Shown here one piece after another: positions 3,641-21,047 of a stretch of DNA of 45,505 nt. A program made the translations under genes and the position numbers. The stretch is taken from assembly GCF_000382365.1 (NCBI RefSeq), contig NZ_KB908237.1, positions 1 to 45,505 of the forward strand, written 5' to 3'. Position 1 is the first letter of the stretch. The number at the start of each line of letters is the position of its first letter. The notes below the pieces were generated by a model. That model was given only the letters and a program-made list of their open reading frames with translations. It made no database searches and was not told where the DNA came from. This DNA comes from Pannonibacter phragmitetus DSM 14782. GTDB lineage: Bacteria > Pseudomonadota > Alphaproteobacteria > Rhizobiales > Stappiaceae.

Positions 3641-5002
3641 CTATTCCCGGACGGTTCTTAACTGTCCTCGTCCCGGCTGATGCCGTGGCGGCGCATTTTT
3701 TCCCATAAGGTGCTGCGGGAGATGCCAAGGCTGTTGGCGGCAGCGCTGGTGGAGCCGCCCGCCTGGGCGAGAGCCGCGATGATATGGGCCCTTTCGGCGG
3801 CATCGCGCACATCGGCAAGCGGTGTTCCCGGTCCGGCGGCGGCAATGACCGGGGGGGGCCGTCCGGCTGAGGCCTTCGGGGAAAATATCGGTTTCTGTCA
3901 GGGTGCTGCCGCTGCCAAGCGCGACGGCCCGTTCCACGCGGTTGATCAGTTCACGGAAGTTGCCCGGCCAGCCATGCAGCCGTGCGGCGTCTTTCGCGGT
4001 CTCGCTCAGCGGCGGCGCGCCAAGGCCCATGCGGGCGGCCGCTTCTGCCGCAAGCCGTTCCAGCAGGGCCGGGATCTCCTCCCGCCGTTCGCGCAAGGGC
4101 GGCAGCTTGCAGGTGATGACATTGATGCGGAACCACAGGTCTTCGCGGAAGGCGCCGCTCGTGGCCATGGCCTCCAGATCCTTGTTCGTGGCGCAGACCA
4201 CCCGCGCCTCGAAACGCCGGCTCTGGCTGGCGCCGAGGCGCCGGAATTCGCGCGTTTCCAGCACGCGCAGCAGCTTGACCTGCAAGGCAGGGGGCAGATC
4301 GCCGATTTCGTCGAGAAACAGCGTGCCGTCTTCTGCTTCCTCGAAGAAACCGCGATGGGCTGCGCCTGCACCGGTGAAAGCTCCGCGCTCATGGCCGAAG
4401 AGCAGGGAATCGGCGAGGTCCGCCGGCAGCGCCCCGCAGTTGACCGGCACGAAGGGCTTGCCCTTGCGTGGTCCTGCCTCATGCACATAGCGGGCTGCCA
4501 CTTCCTTGCCCGAGCCCGTTTCTCCCAGCAGCAGGACAGGCAGATCGATAGCTGCCGCCCGGCGCAGGGTGCTGCCGGTCTTTTCCATGGCCGGGCTGCC
4601 TGAAAAGGGATCTGCAGTGCTGCCTGCCAGACTGCGGCGGCGGCTGGCGATCGTCTGCAGCGTGTCGACAAGGGCATCGAGGTCGAAGGGCTTGCTGACG
4701 TAGTCAAGCGCCCCGTCGCGCACCAGCCGCACCGCCTGGTCGATGTCACCATAGGCGGTCATGAAGATCACCGGCACCATGCCGGACCGCGCGAAATGCT
4801 GCCGCATGACGCTTTCGCCATCGCCGTCCGGCAGGCGGATGTCGGAGAGGATGATGTCCGGTGCATCCCCGTCCAGCGCTGCGCGGGCCTCGCTGGCCGA
4901 GCGGGCCCAGCGGACCTTGAAGCCTTCCAGCTCCAGCCGCTGGCGCAGGGAGGCGCCGAGGGTCGCGTCGTCCTCGACCACGAGGATGCGGCTCGCCGTC
5001 AT
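3641..5002 (-). CDS. Sigma-54-dependent response regulator (NtrC/DctD type), C-terminal helix-turn-helix out of frame
   Basis: As written the frame gives 453 residues. The receiver domain spans about 1-118, with acidic pocket D11/D12, phosphorylated D54 and K104. The AAA+ domain follows, with Walker A GETGSGKE (160-167), the sigma-54 contact motif GAFTGA (207-212) and Walker B LFLDEIGD (228-235). After about residue 383 the protein turns into low-quality Arg/Pro-rich sequence. At a run of eight G (3851-3858), removing one base restores a proper Fis-type DNA-binding helix (SAAANSLGISRSTLWEKMRR) and a stop at 3658-3660. So DNA binding is lost unless the run is a sequencing error or slips. It overlaps the kinase gene by ATGA and follows the mrp operon. 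The target is inferred to be mrp. Confidence 0.85.
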   Translation of the reverse strand: MTASRILVVEDDATLGASLRQRLELEGFKVRWARSASEARAALDGDAPDIILSDIRLPDGDGESVMRQHFARSGMVPVIFMTAYGDIDQAVRLVRDGALDYVSKPFDLDALVDTLQTIASRRRSLAGSTADPFSGSPAMEKTGSTLRRAAAIDLPVLLLGETGSGKEVAARYVHEAGPRKGKPFVPVNCGALPADLADSLLFGHERGAFTGAGAAHRGFFEEAEDGTLFLDEIGDLPPALQVKLLRVLETREFRRLGASQSRRFEARVVCATNKDLEAMATSGAFREDLWFRINVITCKLPPLRERREEIPALLERLAAEAAARMGLGAPPLSETAKDAARLHGWPGNFRELINRVERAVALGSGSTLTETDIFPEGLSRTAPPGHCRRRTGNTACRCARCRRKGPYHRGSRPGGRLHQRCRQQPWHLPQHLMGKNAPPRHQPGRGQLRTVRE

Positions 5003-6447
5003 CTGGCCTTGCTCCCGATTTCCGGTTCGCTGGTGAGGGTCAGCTGCACCGTGGTGCCTGCGCCCTCCTTGCTGCGGATCGACAGGTCCGCGCCGATCCG
5101 CGCCACCAGATTGGACACCACCCAGATGCCGATGCTGCGTTCCACCGGCACATCATCGACCTGGCCGGAGATGATGGCCGCCACCAGTTCCGGCGGCATG
5201 CCGGGGCCTTCGTCGGTGACCTTCAGCACCACCTTGTGTGCGGCTTGATCCCGGCCAAGGCCAATGGTGACGATGCCGCCGGGCGGTGAGGCGCGCACCG
5301 CGTTGAGCATCAGATTGATGAGGATCTGGCGCAGGGCGTCCGCATCGGTCATCACCTGCGTGGCCTCATCAAGCTCCCAGGCCAGAACCACCCCGGCACG
5401 CCGGGCCTCGGGGGCGATCAGCAGCTCCAGATCCTGAATGTCGCGTGCCGTGAGAAGCTTGGCGCCCGAGCGCCTGCGATAGGTGGACAGGGTGACATCG
5501 ACGACGCGGCCAATGCTGTCGAGCCCGTTCTCCAGAAAGTCGAGGGTTTCCTTACGCACCTCTTCACGGTCGCCAAAGCGCCGGAGGGTGGAAATGCCGT
5601 TCTTCAACCCGGCGAGGGGGTTGCGCACCTCATGGGCGATGCTGGCGGCCATGCGTGCCAGCAGCCCGTCCCGCTCCTGCTGGGCCATCTGCTCCAGCAT
5701 GCTCACCCGCTGGGCTTCGGACTGCTCCCGCAGGGCGAGGGCGGCTTCCAGCTGGCGCAGCTCGTCGCCGCGCCGCCATCCGGCTGCCCCGGAAGCGTCG
5801 GCTTCCTGATCGGCAAGGCGGTCGATGAACCTGTCAAGCGGCATGAGAGCCCGGCGCGTCACCGCATAGGTGGCCAGTGCCGCAATGATGGCGACAAGGA
5901 TGTCGATCCCCAGAGCAACGCTTGCTGCCATGCTGGCCGCATCTTCAAGAGGCGTCGTGTCAAAGGTGGCGGCGAGATAAAGGCGCCGGTCCTCGAGAGG
6001 ATAGCTGCGGGCAATCAGCAGCACCGGCCGGTCTGGCACGCTGGTGAGGCTGACACCTTCCGGCCCGAGCGTTTGCGCCTCGCTGAGCGCCTGGTTCAGC
6101 AGGTCTTCGTCTGTTTCTGTCAGCACCGCCGTGCGGACGGTGCCGGTCCTGTCGGTCCACCGGGCCGCCATGCCCTGTTCAAGCAATGCCGTCCGGAAGG
6201 TAAGGGAGGCCGCCAGCTGGGCGCCGACTGTTTCCTCTGCGTCCTTGCCCTTGATTTCAGCGGCGATATGTCCGGCAACAGCATCCAGAAACACCAGGGC
6301 CTGATCCCTCAGGCCGGTTTCATTGCTGGAGCGCAGCACCATGACGCCAATCTGGGTCGTGCCCACCGCCACGACGAACATGGCGATGGCCACGAACAGG
6401 GGCAGGGCAACGGACAAAGGCAGCTTTGATCGCAAAGATGTCGTCAT
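4999..6447 (-). CDS. Membrane sensor histidine kinase paired with the sigma-54 regulator
   Basis: A 482-residue kinase. A first membrane segment lies at about residues 10-36, a periplasmic sensing region of about 130 residues follows, and a second membrane segment lies at about 172-197. The dimerisation domain carries the H-box SIAHEVRNPLAGL with the phosphorylated histidine near residue 272. The N-box (NLMLNAVRASPPGG) and G-box DEGPGMPP complete the ATPase. It resembles DctB/NtrB-like partners of sigma-54 activators. I prefer the ATG at 6447; a TTG at 6459 would add four residues. It starts 43 bases after mrpG and overlaps the regulator by four bases, so the pair may be transcribed with mrp. 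The signal sensed is unknown; ionic or pH stress is a guess from the neighbours. Confidence 0.87.
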   Translation of the reverse strand: MTTSLRSKLPLSVALPLFVAIAMFVVAVGTTQIGVMVLRSSNETGLRDQALVFLDAVAGHIAAEIKGKDAEETVGAQLAASLTFRTALLEQGMAARWTDRTGTVRTAVLTETDEDLLNQALSEAQTLGPEGVSLTSVPDRPVLLIARSYPLEDRRLYLAATFDTTPLEDAASMAASVALGIDILVAIIAALATYAVTRRALMPLDRFIDRLADQEADASGAAGWRRGDELRQLEAALALREQSEAQRVSMLEQMAQQERDGLLARMAASIAHEVRNPLAGLKNGISTLRRFGDREEVRKETLDFLENGLDSIGRVVDVTLSTYRRRSGAKLLTARDIQDLELLIAPEARRAGVVLAWELDEATQVMTDADALRQILINLMLNAVRASPPGGIVTIGLGRDQAAHKVVLKVTDEGPGMPPELVAAIISGQVDDVPVERSIGIWVVSNLVARIGADLSIRSKEGAGTTVQLTLTSEPEIGSKAR

Positions 6448-6490: not shown

Positions 6491-7765
6491 TTATGCCGTC
6501 TGGCCAGAATGCGGCTCCATGATCAGCACGTCGCTTTCCAGGCCCGGTGCGATGCGTTCGCGCCAGGGCGTGCCGTACCAGCTGGTGCGCAGGGGGCGGG
6601 GCGTGTGGCCGAGTATGACGGCGCGCACGCCTTCCGCCCCTGCCGGGATGGAACAGTCATCACCTTCTGCGGCCAATTGCATGTAGTCACAGCCAAAGCG
6701 GCGGGCAACGCCGGTAATATGCGACGGGCTGTCCGGCTGGTTGGTGACATGGACAAGCTTCGTCACGTCCCAAAGGCCGCTGAGCAGGGCCCATTCCGTC
6801 AGGGCGGGCAGATGGGCTTCGCCGCAGTCGCGCACCACGAGCGTGCGGGCGCTTTCCGGCAGGGACTTGCCAGATGTGAAGAGAACCGGGCCGCGGTGGC
6901 AGGACGGCAGGCGCAGCAGACCATCCGGCTCCCAGGTGGTCAGGTCGCGGCGGCCCTCTGTCTGATGATGGAACCAGCCCTTGCAGGGCAGCACCAGCAG
7001 CGTCCGGCCCGGTGCGTCTGCGCACATGAGAAGCTGCTCGGGATCACCTTCGTCATAGACCAGCACCGGCTCGGATGACGCCCGGGACGTGCAGGCCTTC
7101 AGCGCCCGCAATGCGCCGCTGGCCTTGTCGCGGATCATCCTGCGCATTTGCGCGTGATCACTGGCTGCCGTGATGGCATGGGTGTCGATCAGCACATAGG
7201 CGGTCAGTCCGGCGCCATTGCCTTTGGCGATGGCACAGGCCCGTTCCGCTGGTGGCTGCACTTCGCCGTCGATGACTGCAAAGCGCACTGCCTCCAGCAC
7301 GGGCAGCGGCTTCAATGCGCCTCGCGGTTCGGCAAGATGGCGGAAGGGCGCTGCTGCCCGGCGGCCGTCCGGCTCAAGCACTGCGTCCCCGGCCGGCCAG
7401 CCGGTGGGCCACTGGGTGCGCTCGTCCAGCGGCTGGGGCGCCCGGTGCAGCACGCCCTGCAGCGCATCCCCGCCGGCAAGCGCCAGCCGGGCGCCGGAGA
7501 CATAGGCGGCGCGGCCCAGAAGATGGCCAGCGACAGGCACGGTCAGCAGCAGGAACAGCAGGGTGAAAAGCCCCAGCACCACCGCATCCATCTCGCCGTG
7601 GGCGATAATGCTGCCGAGCAGCACGAGGCCCGCGCCCAGGGTTCCGGCCTTGGTGGCGGCATGCATGCGCTGGAACGGGTCCGGCAGCTTCATGACGCCC
7701 AGAGCGGCGATGCACAGAAAGGCGACACCTGCCAGTTTCAGCAGGACGGAAAGCAGCAAGAGCAT
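6491..7765 (-). CDS. mrpG: MrpG fused to a tandem universal-stress-protein-like C-terminal region
   Basis: Residues 1 to about 95 are a standard MrpG/MnhG subunit: three membrane helices with the signature VMKLPDPFQRMHAATKAGTL. A usual MrpG ends near 110-130 residues, but this frame continues to 424. The extra ~300 residues are soluble and look like two alpha/beta units. The second (about 305-420) starts RTLVVRDCGEAHLPALTEWA and ends VILGHTPRPLRTSWYGTPW then SDVLIMEP, which follows the beta-alpha pattern of universal stress proteins. The first unit (about 150-290) is more diverged. The usual USP glycine-rich nucleotide motif is altered, so ATP binding is doubtful. The ATG at 7765 overlaps the mrpF stop and has GGAGG upstream. 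The assignment of the tail is my pattern reading. Confidence 0.8.
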   Translation of the reverse strand: MLLLLSVLLKLAGVAFLCIAALGVMKLPDPFQRMHAATKAGTLGAGLVLLGSIIAHGEMDAVVLGLFTLLFLLLTVPVAGHLLGRAAYVSGARLALAGGDALQGVLHRAPQPLDERTQWPTGWPAGDAVLEPDGRRAAAPFRHLAEPRGALKPLPVLEAVRFAVIDGEVQPPAERACAIAKGNGAGLTAYVLIDTHAITAASDHAQMRRMIRDKASGALRALKACTSRASSEPVLVYDEGDPEQLLMCADAPGRTLLVLPCKGWFHHQTEGRRDLTTWEPDGLLRLPSCHRGPVLFTSGKSLPESARTLVVRDCGEAHLPALTEWALLSGLWDVTKLVHVTNQPDSPSHITGVARRFGCDYMQLAAEGDDCSIPAGAEGVRAVILGHTPRPLRTSWYGTPWRERIAPGLESDVLIMEPHSGQTA

Positions 7766-8055
7766 CACTTGTCCTCCTTCTTCTTTTCAAGCAGCGCCGA
7801 CAGCGAGCAGGTGGCGAGGAAGCCGACCAGGGCGATGCCGAAGGCGATATCCAGAAATTCCCGCCGCCCTGTGCCGATCATGGTCAGCGCGGCAATGGCG
7901 ACGGCGATGCCGGTCAGCATGTCCAGCGCGACGAAGCGGTCGGCATAGCCGGGGCCGGTGACCATGCGGATGGCGGCAAGCGTCAGGGGCACCATCAGGA
8001 TTGCGATCAGGATGGCGGCGAAGAGGGTCAGGTAGCTGTCCAGAAACTCGATCAT
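7765..8055 (-). CDS. mrpF: Mrp antiporter subunit F
   Basis: A 96-residue protein with three membrane helices (about 6-26, 36-56 and 62-84). AIRMVTGPGYADRFVALDML is the MrpF/PhaF signature. It is a small integral subunit of the multi-subunit Na+(K+)/H+ antiporter, needed for complex assembly. The start at 8055 overlaps the mrpE stop by ATGA. The longer frame upstream is antisense-like noise. Confidence 0.92.
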   Translation of the reverse strand: MIEFLDSYLTLFAAILIAILMVPLTLAAIRMVTGPGYADRFVALDMLTGIAVAIAALTMIGTGRREFLDIAFGIALVGFLATCSLSALLEKKKEDK

Positions 8056-8383
8056 CCTTCTATCTCCTTGATGCGCTTCTCGAATGTGTCCTTGATGTTG
8101 TCCGCGACCACAGCCGGATCGGCGGCATCCAGAACGTGAACGTAGAGGGTGCTGAGGTCCTCGCTGACATGCAGCGAGGTGGTTCCCGGCGTCAGGCTGA
8201 CGCAATTGGCCAGCATGGTGACACCGGCGCGGCTGCGCAGGTTGACCGGCACCGCCACAATGGCCGGGCGCAGTGCCGTGCGGTTGCCCAGAACCTGCCG
8301 GGCTACCGTGATGGACGAGGCCACCAGTTCTCTCAGAAACACGAGCCCGAGAATTGCAGACTGGCCGATGCGAATGGCGAGGG

Positions 8384-8387
<4 letters not shown>
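8052..8387 (-). CDS. mrpE: Mrp antiporter subunit E, short form lacking the N-terminal membrane region
   Basis: A 111-residue MrpE/MnhE. The conserved core is present: RPAIVAVPVNLRSRAGVTML, then the LTPGTTSLHVSEDLSTLYVH motif. Most family members have about 160 residues with two extra membrane helices at the start; here translation begins at the third. The ATG at 8387 overlaps the mrpD stop (ATGA) and has GGAG upstream, so the short form looks genuine and not a missed start. MrpE is required for assembly or activity in characterised systems; whether the short form suffices is not known from sequence. Confidence 0.88.
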
Positions 8388-9881
<1,494 letters not shown>

Positions 9882-9889
<8 letters not shown>

Positions 9890-10268
9890 TGCGGGTGGCC
9901 TCCTTGTCAAAGGGCGAGCCCAGCTCTTCGGCCGCGTTCTGCTCGTCGGTGAAGACGGAGCCGAGGGCCGAGTAAGCCTTGAGCACGAGAGCAGCGGCAA
10001 ATGACACCAGCGCAAAGCCGATGACGATGGCAGTCAGGATCAGAGCCTGGGGCAGCGGGTTGGCCGATTCTGCGCCCAGGGTTTCATCGCCCTTCGGGAT
10101 GATCGGCGGGGCGGTGAACTGAAGTCCTCCGGCGACGAAGATCAGCAGGTTCACCGCTGCCGACAGCAGCACGACGCCGAACAGGATGCGCATCACGTGC
10201 CGCGACAGCAGCAGATAGATGCCTGCGCCCATCTGGGCGGAAATGGCAAAGGCGTAGATGAGGCTCAC
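9882..10268 (-). CDS. mrpC: Mrp antiporter subunit C (NuoK-like)
   Basis: A 128-residue membrane protein with three helices (about 4-24, 28-48 and 72-95), homologous to NuoK. The segment [20 protein letters not shown] is the diagnostic MrpC/MnhC motif and includes the position equivalent to the NuoK proton-channel region. It starts with GTG at 10268, overlapping the mrpB stop as GTGA, with GGAG upstream. Confidence 0.92.
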
Positions 10269-10669
10269 TGTTCCACTCCCTCATAAAACCGGAAGACCAG
10301 CGACAGCACGCCGCCGATGACGACCATGAAGACGCCGATGTCGAAGATCGTGGCTGTGCCCACGTGTGTTGAGCCGAGGCTCGTCCACCAATGGGTCAGG
10401 AACGAACCATCCGAGAAAAGACCCGGCAGGCCGCTGACGAAGGACAGGAACAGGCCGCAGCCCATCAGCGTGACGGGGTGAACCATCAGTGCGCGGCGGG
10501 CCGTCTCCACGTTTCCGGCCAGCGCCAGCAGCGCAAAGCCAAGGGCGGCAAACAGCCCCCCGATGAAGCCGCCGCCGGGTTCGTTATGGCCGCGGAAGAG
10601 CATGTAGATGGACGCCGCGAGCATCAGCACGAAGACGAGACGGGACATGGTTGAGAAGATGATGGACAT
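10265..10669 (-). CDS. mrpB: Mrp antiporter subunit B
   Basis: A 134-residue membrane subunit with four hydrophobic helices. [13 protein letters not shown] (after the first helix) is the MrpB/MnhB signature. I chose the ATG at 10669 because AAGGAG lies eight bases before it; a GTG at 10678 overlaps the mrpA stop and would add three residues. It is a separate gene here, unlike loci where an MrpA-MrpB fusion is encoded, so this is a seven-gene (group 1) mrp operon. Confidence 0.9.
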
Positions 10670-10674
10670 GACTG

Positions 10675-13002
10675 TCACTCCTTCGTGCTGGCAGGCTTGC
10701 GGGCACTGCGCAGCAGGCCCCAGGCGGCGATGGTTGCGAGGGCGACGACGGCGATCTCACCCAGCGTGTCGATGGCGCGGTAGTCAACGAGGATCACGTT
10801 GACGACGTTGCGGCCATAGGCTTCCAGGTAGCTGGTCTCGCCGAAATATTCGGACAGGCGCAGGTCAACCGGGGTGACGCCGATGGAGGCGAGCGCGACG
10901 AACATGATCACGGCAAAGCCGGTGGCGATCAGGCCATCGCGGCGCCGCTCGCTGACGGTGCGCGAGTGGCGGCGGCGCGAGGGCAGGCGCAGCAGCACCG
11001 CCGTCATCAGGATGACGATCAGCGTTTCCACGGCGGTTTGCGTCAGGGCGAGATCCGGCGCGCCGTTGAGCATGAAGACCACGGCAGAGCCGAAACCGGT
11101 GACGCCTGCTGCCACGAGCCCGGCGATCAGCGAGCGCACGAAGACCGTTGCGATGGCACCTGCCGCCGTCAGCAGCAGCACCAGCACCACGGAGATGCGG
11201 ATGCGGCCTTCACCCGCCAGGAAGTCCCAGGAGGGTGCCGAGAGGAAGGCGAAGGCAAGACCCGCGATCACCGTCAGCATCACGATGGTGGTGTAGCGGT
11301 GCTGGTCGCCGTTCTGCAGGGTGCGGGTCGACAGGCGCGCCGTACCCAGAATGCCGTTGAGCGCCTTGTGATAGAACCGGTCACCCAGCCAGGCATAGAA
11401 CCGGTCGTAGTGGCGCAGCGTGTTGTGGATGCGGGTCCACTGCAGCACGATCACGGCACCGATGGAGATGACGAGGGCCGACAGCATCAGCATGGGCGTC
11501 AGGCCGTGCCACAGCTTGAAGGACACATCCACCGGCTGGCCATAGAGGGCCGAGGCGGCAGGGGCGATGAGCCACTGGGCCACCGGACCTGGCACGAGGC
11601 CGATCAGGATGCCGCCGGCGGCCAGCAGCAGCGGACCCACGAGCAGGCCCGGCGTCTCGCCATGACGCACCTCGCTGACGCGCTCTGCCTTGAAGTAGAA
11701 CGGGCGGATCGACACCACACCGGCCACGCCCACCATCACCGCATTGACGAGAACGGCGGCTGCAACAGGCAGGAAGTTCCAGTCGCTGGCGAGCTGTGCC
11801 TCGAACAGGTACTCCTTGGAGATGAAGCCGACGAAGGGCGGCAGGCCGGCCATCGACAGGCTGGCCAGCACGGCAGCAACAGCGGTAACCGGCAGGAAGC
11901 GGGCGAGTCCGCCCAGCTTGCTGAGGCTTGCCTCGCCCGTGGCATGAATGGCGGTGCCTGCACAGAAGAACAGCGCCGCCTTGTAAAGGGCATGGGCGAG
12001 GATGAAACCGGCTGTGGCCACGGCTGCAACTTCACCGGTCAGGCCGATCAGCATCACCAGAATGCCGAGCGAGGCGACGGTGGACTGGGCCAGCACGGCC
12101 TTGAAACCTTCCGCCCGCAATGCCTGCAGGGCAGCAATGATCATGGTCAGCGAGCCGACGATGACAAGCGTGTGGCCGAAGGCGGGCATTTCGGCAAAGA
12201 CACCGTCGAACCGCGCCAGCAGGAACACGCCCAGCTTCACCATCGTGGCCGAATGCAGATAGGCGGAGGCCGGCGTCGGCGCGGCCATGGCATTCGGCAG
12301 CCAGAAGTGGAACGGGAACTGCGCGCTCTTGGTGAAGGCGCCGATCATGATCAGGACCGCGATCGTCCCGGCCCAGGGGCTGGCCACGAGTTCGCCGGAG
12401 CGGGCGAGCACCTCGGTGAAGGAGAAGGTCCCCATGGTCATGCCGATGACGAGAATGCCGGCAAACAGCACCAGGCCGCCGCCGCCGGTGACGACCAGAG
12501 ACTGCAGGGCCGACTTGCGGGCAGCTTCCTTGTGGCCGTCAAAGCCGATGAGCAGGAACGAGGCCAGGCTCGTCAGCTCCCAGAAGACGAACATGACGAT
12601 CAGGTTGTCGGAGAGCACCGTGCCCAGCATCGCCGCCATGAACAGCATGATGAGGCTGAGGAAACGGCCGGTCTCGGTGCGCGGCTTTTCCGCGAAATAG
12701 GCGCCGGCATAGATCACCACCAGCGTGCCGATGCCGCTGATCAGCAATCCGAAGAGCAGTGAAAAGCCGTCCAGGCGGAACGCGAGTTCCACACCCAGCG
12801 ACGGCACCCAGGCGAGTTGCGCGGTCAGGGCCTCGCCCGAGGCGACCTGTCCGGCCTGCATCAGCAGCGAAACAAAGATGCCCAGGGGGATGAGGCACAC
12901 CACCCAGCTGGTTGCGCGCCCCAGAAATGTCGAAGCTGGCCGCGCAATCGCTGCGCCGGCCAGTGCGGCAAGTATGCTCCATTCAAAGCTCACGGCTTGC
13001 AT
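10675..13002 (-). CDS. mrpA: Mrp antiporter subunit A (complex I NuoL-like)
   Basis: A 775-residue polytopic protein, the largest antiporter subunit. The first ~500 residues match NuoL/MrpA, with [20 protein letters not shown] and [16 protein letters not shown] around the ion channel. The C-terminal third holds the extra MrpA helices, including the DUF4040-like segment [20 protein letters not shown]. With MrpD it moves Na+ or K+ out in exchange for protons. I give the ATG at 13002; a GTG at 12993 is better spaced from GAGGG and is a real alternative, while a TTG at 13032 would lie inside the apparent sigma-54 promoter. First gene of mrpABCDEFG-kinase-regulator, all minus strand with overlaps or short gaps. 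Confidence 0.92.
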
Positions 13003-13027
13003 CCCTCTTGCTGTTTGCCCCTGTATT

Positions 13028-13043
13028 GGCAAGAGCTGTGCCA
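13028..13043 (-). promoter_or_regulatory. Sigma-54 (-24/-12) promoter for mrpA
   Basis: On the minus strand the sequence TGGCACAGCTCTTGCC carries both invariant doublets of a sigma-54 promoter (TGGCAC, five bases, TTGC). Transcription would start near 13016-13017, leaving a leader of about 15 bases before the mrpA start. The neighbouring sigma-54 activator gene and the inverted repeat 50-100 bases upstream support it. Confidence 0.65.
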
Positions 13044-13092: not shown

Positions 13093-13146
13093 CCTGTCCG
13101 GATTTCCGGACGGCTGCCGGGGCCCCCGTCCGGAAATCCGGACAGG
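13093..13146. repeat. 19-bp perfect inverted repeat with self-palindromic arms, between mrpA and nasT
   Basis: CCTGTCCGGATTTCCGGAC (13093-13111) is repeated as its exact reverse complement at 13128-13146. Each arm contains its own palindrome GTCCGG-four bases-CCGGAC, so the site offers two equal dyads with centres 32 bp apart (three helical turns). It lies about 77-130 bases upstream of the predicted mrp start point, the usual position of binding sites for a sigma-54 activator. It could also form a stem of 19 pairs in RNA or a cruciform. Confidence 0.75.
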
Positions 13147-13262: not shown

Positions 13263-13847
13263 ATGGACGCTGCCCTGACCGTACTCGTGATCGATGAGAA
13301 CGACATTCGCGCCTCGATCATCGAGCGCGGATTGCGGGAGGCCGGGCATGAGCGGGTGATCCTCCTGTCCAGCATGGACGGGCTGGTGCGCCGCATCGTC
13401 GAGATCGACCCGGATGTGATCGTGATCGATCTGGAAAACCCCAACCGTGACCAGCTGGAGCATCTGTTTCAGGTGTCGCGCGCGGCCCAGCGGCCGATTG
13501 CCATGTTCGTGGACCGCTCGGAAAGCGGCATGGTCGCGGCGGCGGTGGAGGCGGGGGTGTCGGCCTATGTGGTCGATGGGCTCAGGCAGGAGCGGGTGAA
13601 GCCGATCCTCGACATGGCCATTGCCCGGTTCAACGCTTTTTCGCGGCTGCAGCAGGAACTGGCAGAGGCACGCAACGCGCTGGAAGAGCGCAAGGTGGTG
13701 GAGCGGGCCAAGGGTATCCTGATGAAATCCCGCGGGCTCAGCGAGGAAGAGGCTTTCACGCTGCTGCGGCAGACGGCGATGAACGAGAAGAAGAAGATCG
13801 CGGACATCGCCCAGAGCGTTGTCACCGCAGCCGGCTTGCTGCTGTGA
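13263..13847 (+). CDS. nasT: NasT: ANTAR-domain RNA-binding antiterminator of nitrate assimilation
   Basis: A 194-residue response-regulator-like protein. The N-terminal receiver domain (about 1-120) keeps VLVIDEND and the acceptor-region aspartate (VIVIDLENPN). The C-terminal ANTAR domain (about 130-190) contains VERAKGILMKSRGLSEEEAF, the family's RNA-binding helices. In characterised systems NasT is held by NasS without nitrate; when released it binds paired hexaloop hairpins in the nas leader RNA and prevents termination. Such hairpins are present at 15329-15397. I start at the ATG 13263; the frame upstream has no site. nasS follows 43 bases later. Confidence 0.92.
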   Translation: MDAALTVLVIDENDIRASIIERGLREAGHERVILLSSMDGLVRRIVEIDPDVIVIDLENPNRDQLEHLFQVSRAAQRPIAMFVDRSESGMVAAAVEAGVSAYVVDGLRQERVKPILDMAIARFNAFSRLQQELAEARNALEERKVVERAKGILMKSRGLSEEEAFTLLRQTAMNEKKKIADIAQSVVTAAGLLL

Positions 13848-13890
13848 ACGGCCGGCCGGAATGGGGAGCGCGTAAAAGGAGTTGGACAGG

Positions 13891-15153
13891 ATGAACGCAC
13901 ACCCGGCACATGCCCCCGATCTTCCCCTGCCCGGCAAGGGGCCGGGCCGGGAGCCGCGCGTGCTCAGGGCCGGGTTCATTCCGCTCGTTGACGCCTCGAT
14001 CCTGCTGGCCGCTGCCGAGGCGGGCTTTGCCGAACGCGAGGGTTTGCGGCTGGAACTGGTGCGTGATGTGTCCTGGGCCAATGTGCGCGACAGGCTCGCC
14101 TTCCGCCAGTTCGATGTTGCCCATATGCTTTCTCCAATGCCCGTGGCGGCCCAGCTTGGCCTTGGTTCCAACCCGTCGCCTGCGGTCACGCCTTTCTTTC
14201 TGGGGCAGGGCGGCAATGCCATCACGCTGGCGCTGCGGCTGTTCGAGGAAATGGCGGCGCTTGCCGAAGGCGTGGAACGGGCTGATGCGCTGGGCTGCGC
14301 CAGGGCTTTGGCGCTGGTGGTGCGGGCGCGGCGCGAGGGCGGCATGGCGCCGCTGACGCTGGGCGTCACCTATCCGTTTTCCTCGCATAACTATGAGTTC
14401 CGCTACTGGCTGGCGGCTGGCGGCATTGATCCGGATGCGGATGTGCGGCTGGTGGTCGTGCCGCCGCCGATGACCTCCGACGCGCTGGAAGCAGGCGCCA
14501 TTGACGGCTTCTGCGTCGGAGCGCCGTGGAACATGATTGCCTCCGAGCGCGGCGTGGGGCGGATCGTTGCCGTCAAGCAGGACATCTGGCCGCTGGCGCC
14601 GGAAAAGGTGCTGGCCATGCGGCCGGAATGGGCCGATGCCAATCAGGACACGGTGATGCGGCTGATCGTGGCGCTGGACCGGGCGGCGCGCTGGTGTCAG
14701 GCGCCGGAAAACCACGATGATCTGGCCGCGATCCTTGCCGATCCGCGCTATCTGGGGGCACCGAAGGACATCCTGCGCCGCGTTCTCGCGGGCGAATTCA
14801 GCCTCGATGCCCATGGCCGCACGCGCCGGATCGACAGCTATTTCCGCTTCCATGGGCAAGGGGCGAATGTGCCCAGCCAGACGCTGGCCTTGTGGATCTA
14901 CAGCCAGATGATCCGCTGGGGGCAGGCGGAGTTTTCGCAGGCACTGGCGGAGAAAGCTGCCAGTGCCTGCCGCCCGGATCTTTACCGCGATGCGCTGGGT
15001 GCCGATGCGGATGCAGACCTTGATGAGGCCGCGCTGACTGCCGCATCCTTCATGGATGGTGCGCGCTTTGATCCTCAGGACATCATGGCCCATGTGGAGG
15101 GTTTCCCGGTGCGCCGCAGGCCCGGTGAGCCGGTTCCGCTCTCTGAGGTGTGA
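13891..15153 (+). CDS. nasS: NasS: cytoplasmic nitrate/nitrite sensor, NrtA-like fold
   Basis: A 420-residue protein of the NrtA/CmpA nitrate-binding family, but with no signal peptide, as expected for the cytoplasmic sensor NasS. Shared motifs with the transporter protein NrtA downstream include YWLAAGGIDPDADV, VVVPPPMTSDAL and the stretch DGFCVGAPWN, which lines the anion pocket in this family. Its known role is to bind NasT and release it when nitrate or nitrite binds. I chose the ATG at 13891 because AAGGAG (13876-13881) lies nine bases before it; a TTG at 13882 is less likely. A long regulatory region follows before nrtA. Confidence 0.9.
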   Translation: MNAHPAHAPDLPLPGKGPGREPRVLRAGFIPLVDASILLAAAEAGFAEREGLRLELVRDVSWANVRDRLAFRQFDVAHMLSPMPVAAQLGLGSNPSPAVTPFFLGQGGNAITLALRLFEEMAALAEGVERADALGCARALALVVRARREGGMAPLTLGVTYPFSSHNYEFRYWLAAGGIDPDADVRLVVVPPPMTSDALEAGAIDGFCVGAPWNMIASERGVGRIVAVKQDIWPLAPEKVLAMRPEWADANQDTVMRLIVALDRAARWCQAPENHDDLAAILADPRYLGAPKDILRRVLAGEFSLDAHGRTRRIDSYFRFHGQGANVPSQTLALWIYSQMIRWGQAEFSQALAEKAASACRPDLYRDALGADADADLDEAALTAASFMDGARFDPQDIMAHVEGFPVRRRPGEPVPLSEV

Positions 15154-15166
15154 GTGGATTCAATTT

Positions 15167-15228
15167 GTGCAGATAAGTTGCTGCACTGCATGATGATGCA
15201 CAAAAAGGTGGCTCAGTGAATATGCACC
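15167..15228 (+). promoter_or_regulatory. Candidate NtrC-type enhancer sites upstream of the nrtA operon
   Basis: GTGCA (15167-15171) and TGCAC (15182-15186) form an inverted pair. TGCAC-five A-GGTG (15197-15210) is close to the NtrC half-site arrangement, and TGCACC follows at 15223. The cluster lies about 100-160 bases upstream of the predicted transcription start, suitable for an enhancer of a sigma-54 promoter. NtrC as the binder is inferred from the pathway. Confidence 0.5.
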
Positions 15229-15299
15229 TGCCAGAGGCCTGAAAGCGTGTTTTCCAGAAAATTATTATAATTCAAGTGGATGTGGGCCTCGTCTGCGTT

Positions 15300-15315
15300 T
15301 GGCACGGCGCTTGCT
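15300..15315 (+). promoter_or_regulatory. Sigma-54 promoter of the nitrate assimilation operon
   Basis: TGGCACGGCGCTTGCT matches the -24/-12 consensus completely (TGGCAC, five bases, TTGCT). The start point would be close to 15326, just before the first leader hairpin. Nitrogen-limitation control through sigma-54 and NtrC is the usual arrangement for such operons. Confidence 0.85.
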
Positions 15316-15328
15316 TTTAAGACTGCAC

Positions 15329-15397
15329 TCCGGTCAACGGCGACCGGATACATCGAACGCACATAACCGCGTTCACGAGAGACATCGACGTCGCTTG
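15329..15397 (+). ncRNA. ANTAR-target leader RNA: two hexaloop hairpins (NasT binding site)
   Basis: Hairpin P1 (15329-15348) has stem TCCGGTC/GACCGGA and loop AACGGC. Hairpin P2 (15376-15397) has stem CGAGAGAC/GTCGCTTG with one A-G mismatch and loop ATCGAC. Both loops have six bases with A at position 1 and G at position 4, the signature recognised by ANTAR proteins such as NasT. A third stem (GAACGC/GCGTTC, 15355-15374) lies between them. The leader begins right at the predicted sigma-54 start point and precedes a T-run, as expected for nitrate-dependent antitermination. Confidence 0.75.
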
Positions 15398-15406
15398 GTT
15401 TGCAGC

Positions 15407-15455
15407 CGGGAACCTCCCTTCCCGCGCGCAGTCACCGGGCGGCGTTTTTTGTTTT
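15407..15455 (+). terminator. Probable leader terminator controlled by NasT
   Basis: CGGGAA/TTCCCG (15407-15424, loop CCTCCC) is followed by a GC-rich segment and then six T, G and four T (15445-15455). The T-run is convincing, but I could not find one clean stem directly abutting it, so the exact terminator fold is uncertain. Confidence 0.45.
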
Positions 15456-15504
15456 GGGCTCCAGGAAAAACAGAAGGGCCCGGGCAAAGAAGGGGACAGA
15501 CACG

Positions 15505-16794
15505 ATGAGCATCACCACAGCCGGCCTCAGCCGCCGCACCTTGTTGAAGTCCACCGCCGCCGCCGCCCTTGCCGGGGCTGTGAAGTCGGCGTTTCCCTCC
15601 GGCGCCTTTGCACAAGGGGCAGGGCCAGAGACAACCCGTGCCGTTCTCGGCTTCATCGCGCTGACCGATTCCGCGCCGCTGATCGTGGCCAAGGAGAAGG
15701 GGCTCTTCGCCAAATACGGCATGCCGGATGTGGAAGTGGTGAAGCAGGCCTCCTGGGGCACCACGCGTGACAATCTGGTGCTGGGCTCGCAAGGCAACGG
15801 CATCGATGGCGCGCATATCCTGACGCCGATGCCCTATCTCATCTCGGCCGGCAAGGTGACGCAGAACAACGTGCCGCTGCCGATGGTCATTCTCGCCCGC
15901 CTCAATCTGGATGCGCAGGGCATTTCGGTGGGCTCTGCCTACAAGGACCTTCAGGTCGGGCTCGATTCCAGCGTGCTGCGCGAAGCCTTTGCCGCACGCA
16001 AGGCGGCTGGCAACCCGGCCAAGGCGGCGATGACCTTCCCCGGAGGTACCCATGACCTGTGGATCCGCTACTGGCTGGCCGCCGGTGGCATCGATCCGGA
16101 CACGGATGTGGAAACCATCGTCGTGCCGCCCCCGCAGATGGTGGCCAACATGAAGGTCGGCACCATGGACTGCTTCTGTGTGGGCGAGCCCTGGAACGAG
16201 CAACTGGTCAATCAGGGCATCGGCTTCACCGCCGTCAACACGGCGGAACTGTGGAACAAGCACCCCGAGAAGTCTCTGGGCATGCGCGCCGACTGGGTGG
16301 AGAAGAACCCGCGTGCGGCGCAGGCCCTGCTGATGGCCGTCATGGAAGCGGCCCAGTGGTGCGATGACATGGCCAACAAGGACGAGCTGTCCGCAATCGT
16401 CGGCAAGCGCGCCTGGTTCAACGTGCCGGCCAAGGACATCGTCGACCGCCTGAAGGGTGAATATGACTACGGCAACGGCAAGGTCGTCGAAGACAGCCCG
16501 CATTTCATGAAGTTCTGGCGCGACCACGCCTCTTATCCGTTCCAGAGCCACGATGCCTGGTTCCTCACCGAGGACATCCGCTGGGGCAAGTTCGAGCATG
16601 GCACCGACATCAAGGCCATGATCGCAAAGGTCAACCGTGAAGACCTGTGGCGCGAGGCAGCCAAGGCCCTGGGCGTCTCCGACATCCCGGCATCCACCTC
16701 ACGCGGTGTGGAAACCTTCTTCGACGGCAAGGTTTTCGACCCGGAGAACCCCGAAGCCTACCTGAAGAGCCTTGCGATTACGCGGATCGCCTGA
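15505..16794 (+). CDS. nrtA: Nitrate ABC transporter substrate-binding protein NrtA
   Basis: A 429-residue periplasmic nitrate/nitrite-binding protein. The N-terminus carries a twin-arginine signal (LSRRTLLKSTAAAALAGA) with likely cleavage after the AFA near residue 35, so it should be exported folded through Tat. Family motifs include LTPMPYLISAG, YWLAAGGIDPDTDV and FCVGEPWNEQ. I start at the ATG 15505, preceded by AAGGGG; an upstream open frame from 15400 runs through the leader and is not coding. It is the first gene of nrtA-nrtB-nrtD-nirB-nirD-nasA-cysG and is closely related to the cytoplasmic sensor NasS encoded just upstream, which suggests an old duplication. Confidence 0.92.
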   Translation: MSITTAGLSRRTLLKSTAAAALAGAVKSAFPSGAFAQGAGPETTRAVLGFIALTDSAPLIVAKEKGLFAKYGMPDVEVVKQASWGTTRDNLVLGSQGNGIDGAHILTPMPYLISAGKVTQNNVPLPMVILARLNLDAQGISVGSAYKDLQVGLDSSVLREAFAARKAAGNPAKAAMTFPGGTHDLWIRYWLAAGGIDPDTDVETIVVPPPQMVANMKVGTMDCFCVGEPWNEQLVNQGIGFTAVNTAELWNKHPEKSLGMRADWVEKNPRAAQALLMAVMEAAQWCDDMANKDELSAIVGKRAWFNVPAKDIVDRLKGEYDYGNGKVVEDSPHFMKFWRDHASYPFQSHDAWFLTEDIRWGKFEHGTDIKAMIAKVNREDLWREAAKALGVSDIPASTSRGVETFFDGKVFDPENPEAYLKSLAITRIA

Positions 16795-16808
16795 AGGCAG
16801 CATGAGAT

Positions 16809-16839
16809 GCCCCGGAGCGGTGCTGCACCACTCCGGGGC
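16809..16839 (+). other. Strong intercistronic hairpin between nrtA and nrtB
   Basis: GCCCCGGAG pairs with CTCCGGGGC, and inside it GGTG pairs with CACC around a three-base loop, with one C/A mismatch between the two stems. There is no T-run, so it is more likely an mRNA-stabilising or processing structure that raises NrtA over the membrane subunits. Confidence 0.6.
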
Positions 16840-16864
16840 TGAAGAAGACCCGAGGGAGAACCCG

Positions 16865-17761
16865 ATGCCACAGACCCAGCTGAAGATGAAGGACGCCGCG
16901 ATACGCAAGGCCACGGCCAGCGTCATCGCCTTTACCGCCCCCATGAAGACAAGCAGCCATTTCACCCGCGCCCAGGCGCTTGCCCGCAGCGCGTCGGAAA
17001 CGCTGCTGCCGCCCGTGATCACCCTCGCCGTGCTTCTGGCCCTTTGGGAAGTTCTGTGCTCCTCACCCACCGCCAGCCTGCCGTCGCCTTCGAAGGTGCT
17101 GTCGGAGAGCTGGGAGATCATCGTCCATCCGTTCTACACCGGGCAGGGCATCGATCAGGGCATGTTCTGGCAGATCCTCGCCAGCCTGCAGCGCGTGGCT
17201 GCCGGCTATGCCTTCTCGGTTGTCGCAGGCATCGGCCTCGGTGTGCTCGTCGGCTCCAGCCAGTGGGCCATGCGGGGGCTTGATCCGATCTTCCAGGTGC
17301 TGCGCACCGTGCCGCCGCTGGCCTGGCTACCCTTGTCGCTGGCAGCCTTTCAGGATGGCAGCCCCTCGGCCATCTTCGTCATCTTCATCACCGCCGTCTG
17401 GCCGGTCATCATCAACACGGCGGTCGGCATCCGCAACATTCCGCAGGACTATCAGAACGTTGCCAGGGTGTTGCGGCTGAACGGCTTCGAGTATTTCGCC
17501 AAGATCATGCTGCCCGCTGCCGCGCCCTACATCTTCACGGGCCTGCGCATCGGCATCGGTCTGTCCTGGCTCGCCATCGTGGCGGCGGAAATGCTCATCG
17601 GCGGCGTCGGCATCGGCTTCTTCATCTGGGACGCGTGGAACTCGTCGCTGATCAGCGACATCATCGTCGCCCTCGTCTATGTCGGGGTCGTCGGCTTCTT
17701 CCTTGACCGTCTCATCGCCTTTGCTGGCCGCCTCGTCACCCGTGGCACCGCGAACGCCTGA
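16865..17761 (+). CDS. nrtB: Nitrate ABC transporter permease NrtB
   Basis: A 298-residue inner-membrane permease of the taurine/nitrate/bicarbonate ABC family with about six helices after a ~45-residue cytoplasmic N-terminus. FRTVPPLAWLPLSL-like sequence (LRTVPPLAWLPLSLAAF) and the coupling-loop region VARVLRLNGFEYFAKIMLPA are typical. It ends with a variable C-terminal tail. I chose the ATG at 16865 because GGGAG lies about eight bases before it; the frame is open back to 16772 through the nrtA end and the hairpin. Confidence 0.9.
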   Translation: MPQTQLKMKDAAIRKATASVIAFTAPMKTSSHFTRAQALARSASETLLPPVITLAVLLALWEVLCSSPTASLPSPSKVLSESWEIIVHPFYTGQGIDQGMFWQILASLQRVAAGYAFSVVAGIGLGVLVGSSQWAMRGLDPIFQVLRTVPPLAWLPLSLAAFQDGSPSAIFVIFITAVWPVIINTAVGIRNIPQDYQNVARVLRLNGFEYFAKIMLPAAAPYIFTGLRIGIGLSWLAIVAAEMLIGGVGIGFFIWDAWNSSLISDIIVALVYVGVVGFFLDRLIAFAGRLVTRGTANA

Positions 17762-17775
17762 ACAGGAGAACCGGC

Positions 17776-18576
17776 ATGGCACAGTCCTATCTTTCCCTGC
17801 AGCTTGTCTCCAAGACCTACGAGCGGGCAGGCCTCAAGTCCGAAGTGCTGCGTGAGGTTTCGCTCAATGCGGACAAGGGCGAGTTCATCTCCATCATCGG
17901 CCACTCCGGCTGCGGCAAGTCCACGGTGCTCAACATCATCGCGGGGCTCACCCCGGCGACGACGGGCGTGGTGTTTCTGGAAGGGCAGGTGGTGGATGCC
18001 CCCGGCCCGGAACGGGCGGTCGTCTTCCAGAACCACAGCCTGCTGCCCTGGCTGACCGTCTACGAGAATGTCGATCTGGCGGTCTCCAAGGTGTTCCGGG
18101 GCCGCAAGAGCAAGGCCGAGCGGCATGACTGGGTGATGCACAATCTCGATCTGGTGCAGATGGCCCATGCGGGCAGCAAGCGTCCGGCGGAAATTTCCGG
18201 TGGCATGAAGCAGCGCGTCGGCATCGCCCGGGCGCTCTCCATGGAACCCAAGGTGCTGTTGCTGGATGAGCCCTTCGGCGCACTGGATGCGCTGACCCGC
18301 GCCCATCTGCAGGATGCGGTGATGGAGATCCACGCCCGGCTCGGCAACACCATGATCATGATCACCCATGACGTGGACGAGGCCGTGCTTCTGTCAGACC
18401 GCATCGTGATGATGACCAACGGCCCGGCAGCCTGCATCGGCGAGGTGCTGGAGGTGCCGATCGAGCGCCCGCGCAACCGCATCGAGCTGGCCTCCGACCG
18501 CACCTATCTGAAGTGCCGCGAGGCTGTCCTGAAATTCCTCTACGAGCGTCACCGCTTCGTGGAAGCGGCGGAGTGA
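17776..18576 (+). CDS. nrtD: Nitrate ABC transporter ATP-binding protein (single-domain NrtD/NasD type)
   Basis: A 266-residue ABC ATPase that powers nitrate import. Walker A is GHSGCGKST (about residues 42-50), the Q-loop is in VVFQNHSLLPWLTV, the signature is ISGGMKQR, Walker B is VLLLDEPFGALDALTR and the switch histidine is in MITHDVDEA. It lacks the C-terminal NrtA-like domain of cyanobacterial NrtC, so the single-domain name is preferred; some databases call this orthologue NrtC or NasD. GGAG precedes the start, 14 bases after nrtB. Confidence 0.92.
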   Translation: MAQSYLSLQLVSKTYERAGLKSEVLREVSLNADKGEFISIIGHSGCGKSTVLNIIAGLTPATTGVVFLEGQVVDAPGPERAVVFQNHSLLPWLTVYENVDLAVSKVFRGRKSKAERHDWVMHNLDLVQMAHAGSKRPAEISGGMKQRVGIARALSMEPKVLLLDEPFGALDALTRAHLQDAVMEIHARLGNTMIMITHDVDEAVLLSDRIVMMTNGPAACIGEVLEVPIERPRNRIELASDRTYLKCREAVLKFLYERHRFVEAAE

Positions 18577-18581
18577 GACCC

Positions 18582-21047
18582 ATGCGCCAGAAACTCGTTA
18601 TCGCCGGCAATGGCATGGCTCCGGGACGGATGCTGGAGCATCTTCTGGAGCAGGCGCCGGACCTTTACGACATCACCATTTTCAACGCCGAACCGCGCGT
18701 GAATTACGACCGCATCATGCTGTCGCCGGTTCTCTCGGGCGAAAAGGCCTTCGAGGATATCATCATCCATGGCGATGGCTGGTACATCCGTAACGGCATC
18801 ACCCTCTACAAGGGCCACCGCATCACCACCATCGACCGTGAGGCGAAGACCGTCACCTCCGATCAGGGCGAGATTGCAGCCTACGACAAGCTGGTGATCG
18901 CCACCGGCTCGGTGCCCTTCATCCTGCCCGTGCCGGGCAAGGACCTGAGAGGCGTCATCACCTACCGCGATCTGGATGACGTGGATGCCATGCTGCTGGC
19001 CGCGCAGGCCCGCGAGACGGCGGTGGTCATCGGCGGCGGTCTGCTGGGGCTGGAAGCGGCTGCCGGGCTGAAGGCGCGCGGCATGGATGTGACCGTGCTG
19101 CACGTGATGCCGACGCTGATGGAGCGTCAACTCGATCCGGCGGCAGGCTATCTGCTGCAGCGCTCGCTGGAAGAGCGCGGCATCAAGGTGATGACCCGCG
19201 CCAACACGCAGGCACTGCTGGCCGATGACACCGGCAAGGTCCGTGCGGTCGCGCTGCAGGATGGCACGGAAGTGCCCGCGACGCTCGTCGTCATGGCGGC
19301 GGGCATCCGCCCCAACGCCGGCCTTGCCCGCGAGGCAGGGCTGGATGTGAACCGGGGCATCCTCGTGGATGACCGCATGCGCACCAGCGCTCCGGACATC
19401 TTCTCCCTCGGCGAATGCGCGGAAGTGGGCGGGCAGGTCTATGGCCTTGTCGCGCCGCTCTATGAAATGGCGCGGGTGCTGGCGGGCGAACTGGCAAAGC
19501 CGGTGACGGGTGAAGACGTGAAGGGCTTCGTCCATCAGGACACGCCCACCAAGCTCAAGGTCACCGGCATCGATCTCTTCTCGCTGGGCGATTTTGCCGA
19601 AAGCGAGGACCGGGAGGAAATCGTCCTGCGCGATGCCAGCGCGGGCGTCTACAAGCGGCTGATCCTCAAGGATAACCGTATCATCGGTTCGGTCCTCTTC
19701 GGCGAGACCGGCGATGCCGCATGGTTTGCGGATCTGAAGAAAAAGGGCACGGATATCTCGGATCTGCGCGAGACGCTGATCTTCGGGCAGGCCTTCCAGG
19801 GAGGGGGCGCACTGGACCCTACGGCGGCCGTTGCGGTGTTGGCGGATGATGCGGAAATCTGCGGCTGCAACGGCGTGTGCAAGGGGACCATCGTTTCGGC
19901 CATCACGGCCAAAGGCTTGACCAGCCTTGAGGAGGTCCGCGCCCACACCAAGGCCTCGGCCTCCTGCGGCAATTGCACGGGGCTGGTGGAAAAGGTGATG
20001 CAGCTCACGCTTGGCGACAGGTTCCAGGCGCAGGCGGTCAAGCCCATGTGCGGCTGCACCACGCATAGCCATGACGAAGTGCGCCGCCTGATCAAGGCGA
20101 AGAAGCTGAAGTCCATTCCGGCGGTGATGCAGGAGCTGAACTGGTCCACCTCCGGTGGCTGCGCCAAGTGCCGGCCTGCGCTCAACTACTATCTGATGGC
20201 TGATTGGCCGGGCGAATATGAGGATGACAGCCAGTCGCGCTTCATCAACGAGCGCGTTCACGCCAACATCCAGAAGGACGGTACCTATTCTGTCGTCCCG
20301 CGCATGTGGGGTGGCATGACCTCGGCGGCAGAACTGAGGGCCATCGCCGATGTGGTGGACAAGTTCGCCATTCCCGCCGTCAAGGTCACCGGCGGCCAGC
20401 GCATCGACATGCTGGGAGTGAAGAAAGAAGACTTGCCCGGCGTCTGGGAAGATCTCGGCAAGGCCGGCTTCGTCTCCGGCCACGCCTATGCCAAGGGCCT
20501 GCGCACCGTGAAGACCTGCGTCGGCTCGGACTGGTGCCGCTTCGGCACGCAGGATTCGAGCGGTCTGGGTGTGCGGCTGGAGAAGTTCCTCTGGGGCTCC
20601 TGGACGCCGGCCAAGGTGAAGCTGGCCGTCTCCGGCTGCCCGCGCAACTGCGCCGAGGCCACCTGTAAGGACGTGGGCGTGATCTGTGTGGACAGCGGCT
20701 ACGAGATCCATTTCGCGGGCGCTGCCGGGCTCGACATCAAGGGCACGGATGTTCTGGGCCTTGTCCATACCGAGGATGAGGCGCTGGAGCACATCACGGC
20801 GCTGATTCAGATGTACCGCGAGCAGGGCCATTATCTGGAGCGCATCTACAAGTGGGCCAAACGCATCGGCCACGACGAGGTGCGCCGTCAGATCATGGAA
20901 GATGGCGACCGCCGCCGCGCCTATTTCGAGCGCTTCGTCTACTCGCAGAAATTCGCGCAGACCGACCCCTGGTCCGAGCGTGTTTCTGGCAAGGACAAGC
21001 ATGAATTCCGGCCCATGGCCGTGCTGGGACTGGAGGCGGCGGAATGA
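18582..21047 (+). CDS. nirB: Assimilatory nitrite reductase [NAD(P)H], large subunit
   Basis: An 821-residue cytoplasmic enzyme reducing nitrite to ammonium with six electrons from NAD(P)H. The N-terminal half is a pyridine-nucleotide/FAD oxidoreductase (second Rossmann motif VVIGGGLLGLEAA near residue 148). Two BFD-type [2Fe-2S] segments follow (CGCNGVCKG near 427 with ASCGNC, then MCGCTTH with GGCAKC). The C-terminal sulfite/nitrite reductase domain carries the siroheme-4Fe4S cysteines: C-x5-C in TCVGSDWCRFG (about 646) and C-x3-C in GCPRNCAEA (about 686). The ATG at 18582 follows the nrtD stop by three bases. It overlaps nirD by four bases. Confidence 0.95.
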   Translation: MRQKLVIAGNGMAPGRMLEHLLEQAPDLYDITIFNAEPRVNYDRIMLSPVLSGEKAFEDIIIHGDGWYIRNGITLYKGHRITTIDREAKTVTSDQGEIAAYDKLVIATGSVPFILPVPGKDLRGVITYRDLDDVDAMLLAAQARETAVVIGGGLLGLEAAAGLKARGMDVTVLHVMPTLMERQLDPAAGYLLQRSLEERGIKVMTRANTQALLADDTGKVRAVALQDGTEVPATLVVMAAGIRPNAGLAREAGLDVNRGILVDDRMRTSAPDIFSLGECAEVGGQVYGLVAPLYEMARVLAGELAKPVTGEDVKGFVHQDTPTKLKVTGIDLFSLGDFAESEDREEIVLRDASAGVYKRLILKDNRIIGSVLFGETGDAAWFADLKKKGTDISDLRETLIFGQAFQGGGALDPTAAVAVLADDAEICGCNGVCKGTIVSAITAKGLTSLEEVRAHTKASASCGNCTGLVEKVMQLTLGDRFQAQAVKPMCGCTTHSHDEVRRLIKAKKLKSIPAVMQELNWSTSGGCAKCRPALNYYLMADWPGEYEDDSQSRFINERVHANIQKDGTYSVVPRMWGGMTSAAELRAIADVVDKFAIPAVKVTGGQRIDMLGVKKEDLPGVWEDLGKAGFVSGHAYAKGLRTVKTCVGSDWCRFGTQDSSGLGVRLEKFLWGSWTPAKVKLAVSGCPRNCAEATCKDVGVICVDSGYEIHFAGAAGLDIKGTDVLGLVHTEDEALEHITALIQMYREQGHYLERIYKWAKRIGHDEVRRQIMEDGDRRRAYFERFVYSQKFAQTDPWSERVSGKDKHEFRPMAVLGLEAAE

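Follow-up and report, generated by a model that had tools for sequence, protein, structure and literature searches.

How is the Mrp antiporter of Pannonibacter phragmitetus DSM 14782 switched on? An earlier note on the window (the whole stretch of DNA that was analysed, 45,505 nucleotides of contig NZ_KB908237.1) had placed a -24/-12 promoter in front of mrpA and proposed that a sensor kinase and an activator encoded at the end of the operon complete a self-contained circuit. Judging from the comparison of sequences reported here, we consider it highly probable that this Mrp cation/proton antiporter is inducible and that the locus supplies a sigma-54 switch of its own.

Pfam identified all Mrp subunits from A to G in the window, and the gene order mrpA-B-C-D-E-F-G, kinase, response regulator (Table 1) agrees with the description of an operon that runs into a kinase and a sigma-54 activator. 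The gap between mrpG and the kinase gene is 43 bases, and the kinase and regulator genes overlap by 4. With its seven subunits, mrpA-G, the operon resembles the Mrp (Mnh/Pha/Sha) operons of CPA3 antiporters; it is set apart from them by the terminal kinase-regulator pair, the predicted sigma-54 promoter and the long C-terminal domain of MrpG.

Table 1. Features of the mrp locus (positions within the window).
Feature	Position	Strand	Basis or remark
Distal palindrome GTCCGGAAATCCGGAC, predicted upstream activating site	13128..13143		Centre 92.5 bases from T of TGGC
Proximal palindrome GTCCGGATTTCCGGAC, predicted upstream activating site	13096..13111		Centre 60.5 bases from T of TGGC
Predicted -24/-12 (sigma-54) promoter TGGCACAGCTCTTGCC	13043..13028	minus	Motif scan; best upstream match in 21/21 linked loci
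mrpA	10675..13002	minus	Pfam Proton_antipo_M, MbhD, MbhE
mrpB	10265..10678	minus	Pfam MnhB
mrpC	9882..10268	minus	Pfam Oxidored_q2
mrpD	8384..9889	minus	Pfam Proton_antipo_M; start from reading frame and homology
mrpE	8052..8387	minus	Pfam MNHE
mrpF	7765..8055	minus	Pfam MrpF_PhaF; start from reading frame
mrpG with C-terminal extension of ~330 residues	6491..7768	minus	Pfam PhaG_MnhG_YufB, residues 12-89 only
Membrane sensor histidine kinase, AioS-like	4999..6447	minus	Pfam HisKA, HATPase_c; model; adjoins mrpG in related loci
NtrC-type response regulator, AioR-like	3641..5002	minus	Pfam Response_reg, Sigma54_activat, AAA_lid_14; alignment; trees
Helix-turn-helix of regulator, out of frame with the remaining coding sequence	3658..3822	minus	In frame in L013

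In the structural model of the kinase (mean pLDDT 73.5), long helices surround a short alpha/beta domain. This domain may be a periplasmic sensor of the PAS/Cache-like kind, flanked by two membrane helices. A fold search with this model matched mainly kinase cores and not the sensor domain; the best solved relative is ZraS. The best NCBIfam matches were ntrC followed by AtoC for the regulator, and AtoS followed by ZraS for the kinase. NtrBC, AtoSC and ZraSR are among the closest known systems, but the scores lie far below the equivalog cut-offs. These two-component systems act on other targets.

The regulator of the window retains its receiver domain, its AAA+ domain and the GAFTGA loop, whereas the C-terminal helix-turn-helix is out of frame; a run of eight G (3851-3858) lies between the two frames. 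In the sister species (genome G008, locus L013) the regulator is intact, with the helix-turn-helix in frame and 95 percent identity over residues 1-380, and the same holds for the reading frame in all seven rows besides the window in an alignment of eight. Three of these eight regulators (L017, L019, L020) have GAFTSA in place of GAFTGA in the loop that contacts sigma-54. Because its DNA-binding helix lies in another frame, the switch of the window strain itself may be broken or misassembled. A transposase-like reading frame was noticed by eye just 3' of the regulator in the sister species (L013, 14243-14872, plus strand). Taken together with the presence of the kinase locus in two of five members of the genus, it hints at mobility or loss.

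In the promoter candidate TGGCACAGCTCTTGCC, TGGCAC and TTGC are both exact, with a spacer of 5 bases and with the GG and GC dinucleotides present. Measured against the longer consensus TGGCACGN4TTGCW there are two mismatches, so the 'full match' claimed previously is true for the core TGGCAC-N5-TTGC only; the distance given to mrpA was borne out (25 bases between TGGCACAGCTCTTGCC and the ATG at 13002). The genome of the strain contains rpoN. Sites of this kind are not rare: with up to two mismatches the window holds 9 matches where 10.8 are expected, and the exact core occurs 15 times in the 4.78 Mb genome compared with 12 times for a reversed control pattern. The motif therefore does not by itself carry a claim of sigma-54 control, and TGGCACAGCTCTTGCC taken alone is weak evidence. 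For the 260-base upstream gap, however, it is an unusual site: its score was reached by 11 of 2000 dinucleotide shuffles of the gap, either strand counted. A further strong -24/-12-like match, TGGCACGGCGCGTGCT, lies at 43692-43707 (plus strand).

Upstream of the -24 box are two palindromes, GTCCGGAAATCCGGAC and GTCCGGATTTCCGGAC, which the earlier note had overlooked. Both are perfect, and their centres are 32 bases apart. NtrC-type activators bind paired sites of this type. The exact form GTCCGGN4CCGGAC occurs three times genome-wide, and two of these copies stand upstream of this mrpA. With one mismatch allowed the number rises to 61, which is below the 78 obtained with the reversed control; only the exact, paired form is therefore informative. 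A text search for the palindrome gave no match.

Does this arrangement persist in other genomes? Within the family of the window strain, the kinase was found in 11 of 87 genomes (E up to 1e-40), and in nine of these 11 MrpG directly precedes it and the regulator directly follows; all eight relatives among the nine carry mrpA-G in larger stretches. An order-wide search found the kinase in 34 of 397 genomes (E up to 1e-60). Thirty of these loci were retrieved, one of them cut by a contig end, and seven, the window included, have an MrpG match beside the kinase. When the best 80 named-genome loci listed and six coded ones were compared, 13 of the 86 had such a match. The matches listed include Rhizobium albus, Pelagibacterium luteolum and Salinarimonas rosea as well as MAGs titled Salinarimonas, Methylobacterium and Burkholderiaceae; the pair behind mrpG thus occurs in several alphaproteobacterial families and in one MAG titled Burkholderiaceae.

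We then define as linked the distinct mrpA loci that were assigned to kinase-activator operons and had upstream DNA at hand (n = 21). L069 and L070 were dropped before counting (same contigs as L020 and L015), as was L175 (same place as L065); L060 and L064, which have no mrpA, were replaced by L171 and L172 from other contigs of the same genomes, presumed to belong to the same operon. In 21 of 21 linked loci the highest score upstream of mrpA (12.6-17.6) belongs to a sigma-54 site; in three of these sites (L065, L074, L171) the -12 element lacks an intact GC. All 21 genomes contain rpoN. By a fixed rule both palindromes are present in 18 loci and one in the remaining three (L061, L062, L172). 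Measured from the -24 box, the centres of 15 pairs fall at -60 to -62 and -92 to -94; the other three pairs (L063, L065, L068) have different offsets. The comparison proposed in the earlier note thus came out in its favour, with the kinase-regulator pair conserved behind mrpG in relatives and the promoter site conserved before mrpA (21/21 loci). In L073 (3997, minus strand), a Burkholderiaceae MAG, a second sigma-54-like site points in the opposite direction from the same palindrome pair before mrpA.

Thirty mrpA loci of the same order served as controls; among them is the regular mrp operon that the genus has as a second copy (L025-L029). No regulator was found in the DNA retrieved around any of the 30, an absence that is weaker for L209 and L228 because contig ends cut them. 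Weak kinase matches (23-31 percent identity) occur somewhere in the stretch in 13 controls, none of them with a regulator. With start codons taken from reading frames, none of the 30 has a site scoring at least 12.5 before mrpA, a threshold that, like the palindrome rule, was chosen after the first loci had been seen; the regular copy of the genus likewise has no strong sigma-54 site before its start. At least one palindrome-like stretch lies within 400 bases in seven controls, and the combination of promoter and palindromes in none. A scan of the loci in the comparison (4.79 Mb, both strands, repeats included) found this module before mrpA in linked loci and beside AioS-AioR-like pairs, and once facing the opposite way, in the L073 gap.

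These data bear on an alternative in which the -24/-12 site matches by chance and mrp is expressed from an ordinary promoter or by read-through. The abundance of the core in the genome would fit such a reading, as would the sigma-54-like sites, scoring 15.5, that lie inside mrpA by the assigned start in three controls of one genus. Against it stand the conservation of the site and of the palindromes in the linked loci and the behaviour of 1050 shuffled upstream regions: 19 scored as high as the site and 51 matched the count of two palindromes when each criterion was applied alone and without a distance rule. We rejected a chance match on the conservation and geometry of promoter and palindromes, and consider it very improbable. 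The MrpA tree offers only two independent contrasts (sign test p 0.5), the linked loci being largely co-inherited, and our claim is therefore one of conservation and not of statistical association. The comparison across loci turns TGGCACAGCTCTTGCC into strong evidence for a sigma-54 promoter.

The DNA on the other side of the promoter raises a different possibility. A cluster that resembles nitrate assimilation genes occupies 13263-24116 (plus strand) and comprises an ANTAR regulator (nasT-like), two NMT1-like binding proteins, an ABC transporter, a nirB-like gene, a Rieske nirD-like protein and a molybdopterin reductase. A leader at 15317-15430 (plus strand), 3' of a site at 15300, folds into successive hairpins, which we take to be what is expected of an ANTAR antitermination target. 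NtrC might bind the palindromes and the promoter as part of nitrogen control, a reading favoured by the divergent orientation of the nasT-like, nasS-like, nitrate transport, nirB, nirD-like and nitrate reductase-like genes relative to mrpA and by the match without mismatch to the sigma-54 consensus at 15300. However, inspection by eye of the flanks of 13 relatives showed a nasT-like neighbour in L013 alone, while the palindromes persist elsewhere and are common to AioR-type loci. Control through the divergent nas genes was rejected on the strength of this single occurrence in 13 flanks, and we regard it as extremely unlikely.

The closest counterpart of the locus that we found is the control of the arsenite oxidase genes aioBA by AioXSR and RpoN (accessible text of PMC3834237, PMC7533571, PMC6011840 and PMC5908839). 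According to the accessible text of PMC3834237, two palindromes and a -24/-12 box precede all 12 aioBA operons with aioXSR and are absent from the others; the promoter of NT-26 is given as TGGCACAACGATTGCA (PMC6011840, accessible text). The window has the same layout: an AioS-like kinase and an AioR-like NtrC-type regulator adjoin each other and their presumed target, and a -24/-12 box with two upstream palindromes is present here and in 18 of 21 linked loci. The spacing of the palindromes is 32-33 bases in the AioX-type loci compared, as in most linked loci. The proximal palindrome differs in position: most linked loci have it at -60 to -62, but it lies at -70 to -72 in four of the six AioX-type genomes in which the module was found, and at -60 and -82 in the remaining two. 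In two genomes (G011, G052) the same module lies 3' of the regulator and 5' of arsenite oxidase genes.

The kinase-activator pair and AioS-AioR are sister groups. Of the 19 linked regulators in the tree, 16 fall into a clade of their own (SH-aLRT 97) and 20 AioX-type regulators into a separate one (SH-aLRT 99); linked and AioX-type regulators together are set apart from five further NtrC-type regulators that the genome encodes (99). The regulator of the window falls outside the AioX-associated clade. The placement of L065, L073, L074 and the unlinked L075 is not resolved, and a single mrp clade of regulators is not rejected (p-AU 0.388). L018 and L072 (incomplete), L046 (too short), L055 and L040 were left out of the trees, and L038 and L071 (identical, long branch) out of the rooted one. 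L075 (9804, plus strand; Acetobacteraceae AT-5844) encodes an AioSR-like pair with neither an Mrp nor an AioX match; the module stands before the kinase, and a gene for what may be a TctA-like transporter lies downstream.

The differences from AioXSR concern the target, mrpA-G, and the absence of two components. With an AioX query from L021 (Pfam Phosphonate-bd), an AioX-like gene was found before the kinase in 23 of 55 loci (22 genomes), and no homologue in the window or in any other mrp-linked locus among the 55. The arsenite oxidase large subunit exceeded its family cut-off in two of 17 genomes (G011, G052) and in none of six in a second set, and the small subunit of G011 was above the NCBIfam cut-off; arsenite oxidase was above cut-off in none of the 21 linked genomes (15 + 6). 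We therefore rejected true AioXSR membership, as no AioX homologue was found in the linked loci searched and no arsenite oxidase above cut-off in the linked genomes. Even so, the circuit could be real but belong to an arsenic or oxyanion module in which arsenite or a related oxyanion is the signal for the AioSR-like pair, which responds by increasing Mrp activity. Kashyap is said to have reported in 2006 that an Na+:H+ antiporter is essential for arsenite oxidation in A. tumefaciens. The same tie is described in the accessible text of PMC3022917 and PMC5703873, and the membership of the regulator in the AioR family and the shared enhancer layout point the same way. The lack of AioX and of arsenite oxidase speaks against this reading, and so does the lack, by eye, of an arsenic island in the flanks of 13 linked loci. 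We judge an arsenic module improbable.

For the sigma-54 switch of Mrp itself we propose the following model. The membrane kinase would sense a periplasmic condition via its short PAS/Cache-like domain and phosphorylate the NtrC-type regulator. Two regulator dimers would occupy the paired GTYCGGN4CCGRAC palindromes and then oligomerise, and the resulting AAA+ ring would touch sigma-54 polymerase at TGGCAC-N5-TTGC and open the promoter at the predicted start site. Co-transcription of mrpA-G with kinase and regulator would create a positive loop. A sister branch of AioS-AioR would thus have been put to use on Mrp, without the AioX sensor protein. As to the signal, sodium, alkali or envelope stress is our guess. 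The self-contained circuit of kinase, activator and sigma-54 promoter that had been suggested is supported by the comparison across loci, with the helix of the regulator out of frame in the window itself.

MrpG adds an unusual element. A CPA3 MrpG is expected to be a small membrane protein of ~100 residues; that of the window has 425, only the first 89 of which are recognised by Pfam. An AlphaFold2 model of moderate confidence (mean pLDDT 66.5) gave tandem universal stress proteins as the best Foldseek matches (3ab7, E 2.5e-8), with MrpG subunits of solved Mrp complexes at lower ranks. The C-terminal extension is accordingly modelled, with the same moderate confidence, as a tandem universal-stress-protein-like domain. 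In 28 of the 30 control loci only 69-116 residues of MrpG align; the MrpG of L209 is cut by a contig end, and that of L199 (G214 C5; L173 in the promoter comparison) aligns over 423 columns. L199 has no kinase-regulator pair in its stretch and no strong sigma-54 site upstream, and the long extension is thus not strictly tied to the kinase. As a tentative idea, which we think possible and less than even, a single old sigma-54 circuit could have been put to two sister uses, AioS-AioR arsenite sensing and a direct-sensing, AioX-less Mrp switch, with the antiporter sharing in its own sensing via the MrpG domain. If this is true, the tandem domain would signal the state of ions, pH or nucleotides, and the antiporter operon would have built-in feedback, a wiring of Mrp that we did not find reported in the accessible text of the literature compared.

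The name mrpA is also in use for an unrelated gene of MR/P fimbriae. For the antiporter, no report of sigma-54 or two-component control was found in the accessible text of the open-access literature searched, which includes PMC4641369, PMC12516955, PMC6754898, PMC2700814, PMC7533571, PMC3834237, PMC6011840, PMC5908839, PMC5703873, PMC6292899, PMC9408914, PMC9927469, PMC7699953 and PMC3022917. In the accessible main text of the Mrp review PMC5703873 the terms 'sigma', 'two-component', 'histidine kinase', 'regulator' and 'universal stress' do not occur. The earlier suggestion that the circuit could be new stands for its target, Mrp, and not for the two-component family or the enhancer-promoter layout, which are known for AioXSR-aioBA (PMC3834237, accessible text). 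The sigma-54 design of the locus is thus a known one, and what is different is its target, on which the accessible open-access literature yielded no earlier report.

Until now this layout has been described for enzymes that oxidise arsenite; here it suggests how some bacteria may switch Mrp on only when needed. Since kinase, activator, enhancer-like pair and sigma-54 promoter site travel with the operon, Mrp induction becomes directly testable. A sister group of AioSR that lacks arsenite oxidase may provide a route to ask how AioX-based arsenite sensing arose, and with it the link reported in Agrobacterium between arsenite oxidation and an Na+:H+ antiporter could be read in regulatory terms. 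Finally, the fusion in MrpG may give the Mrp complex a regulatory domain on its cytoplasmic side.
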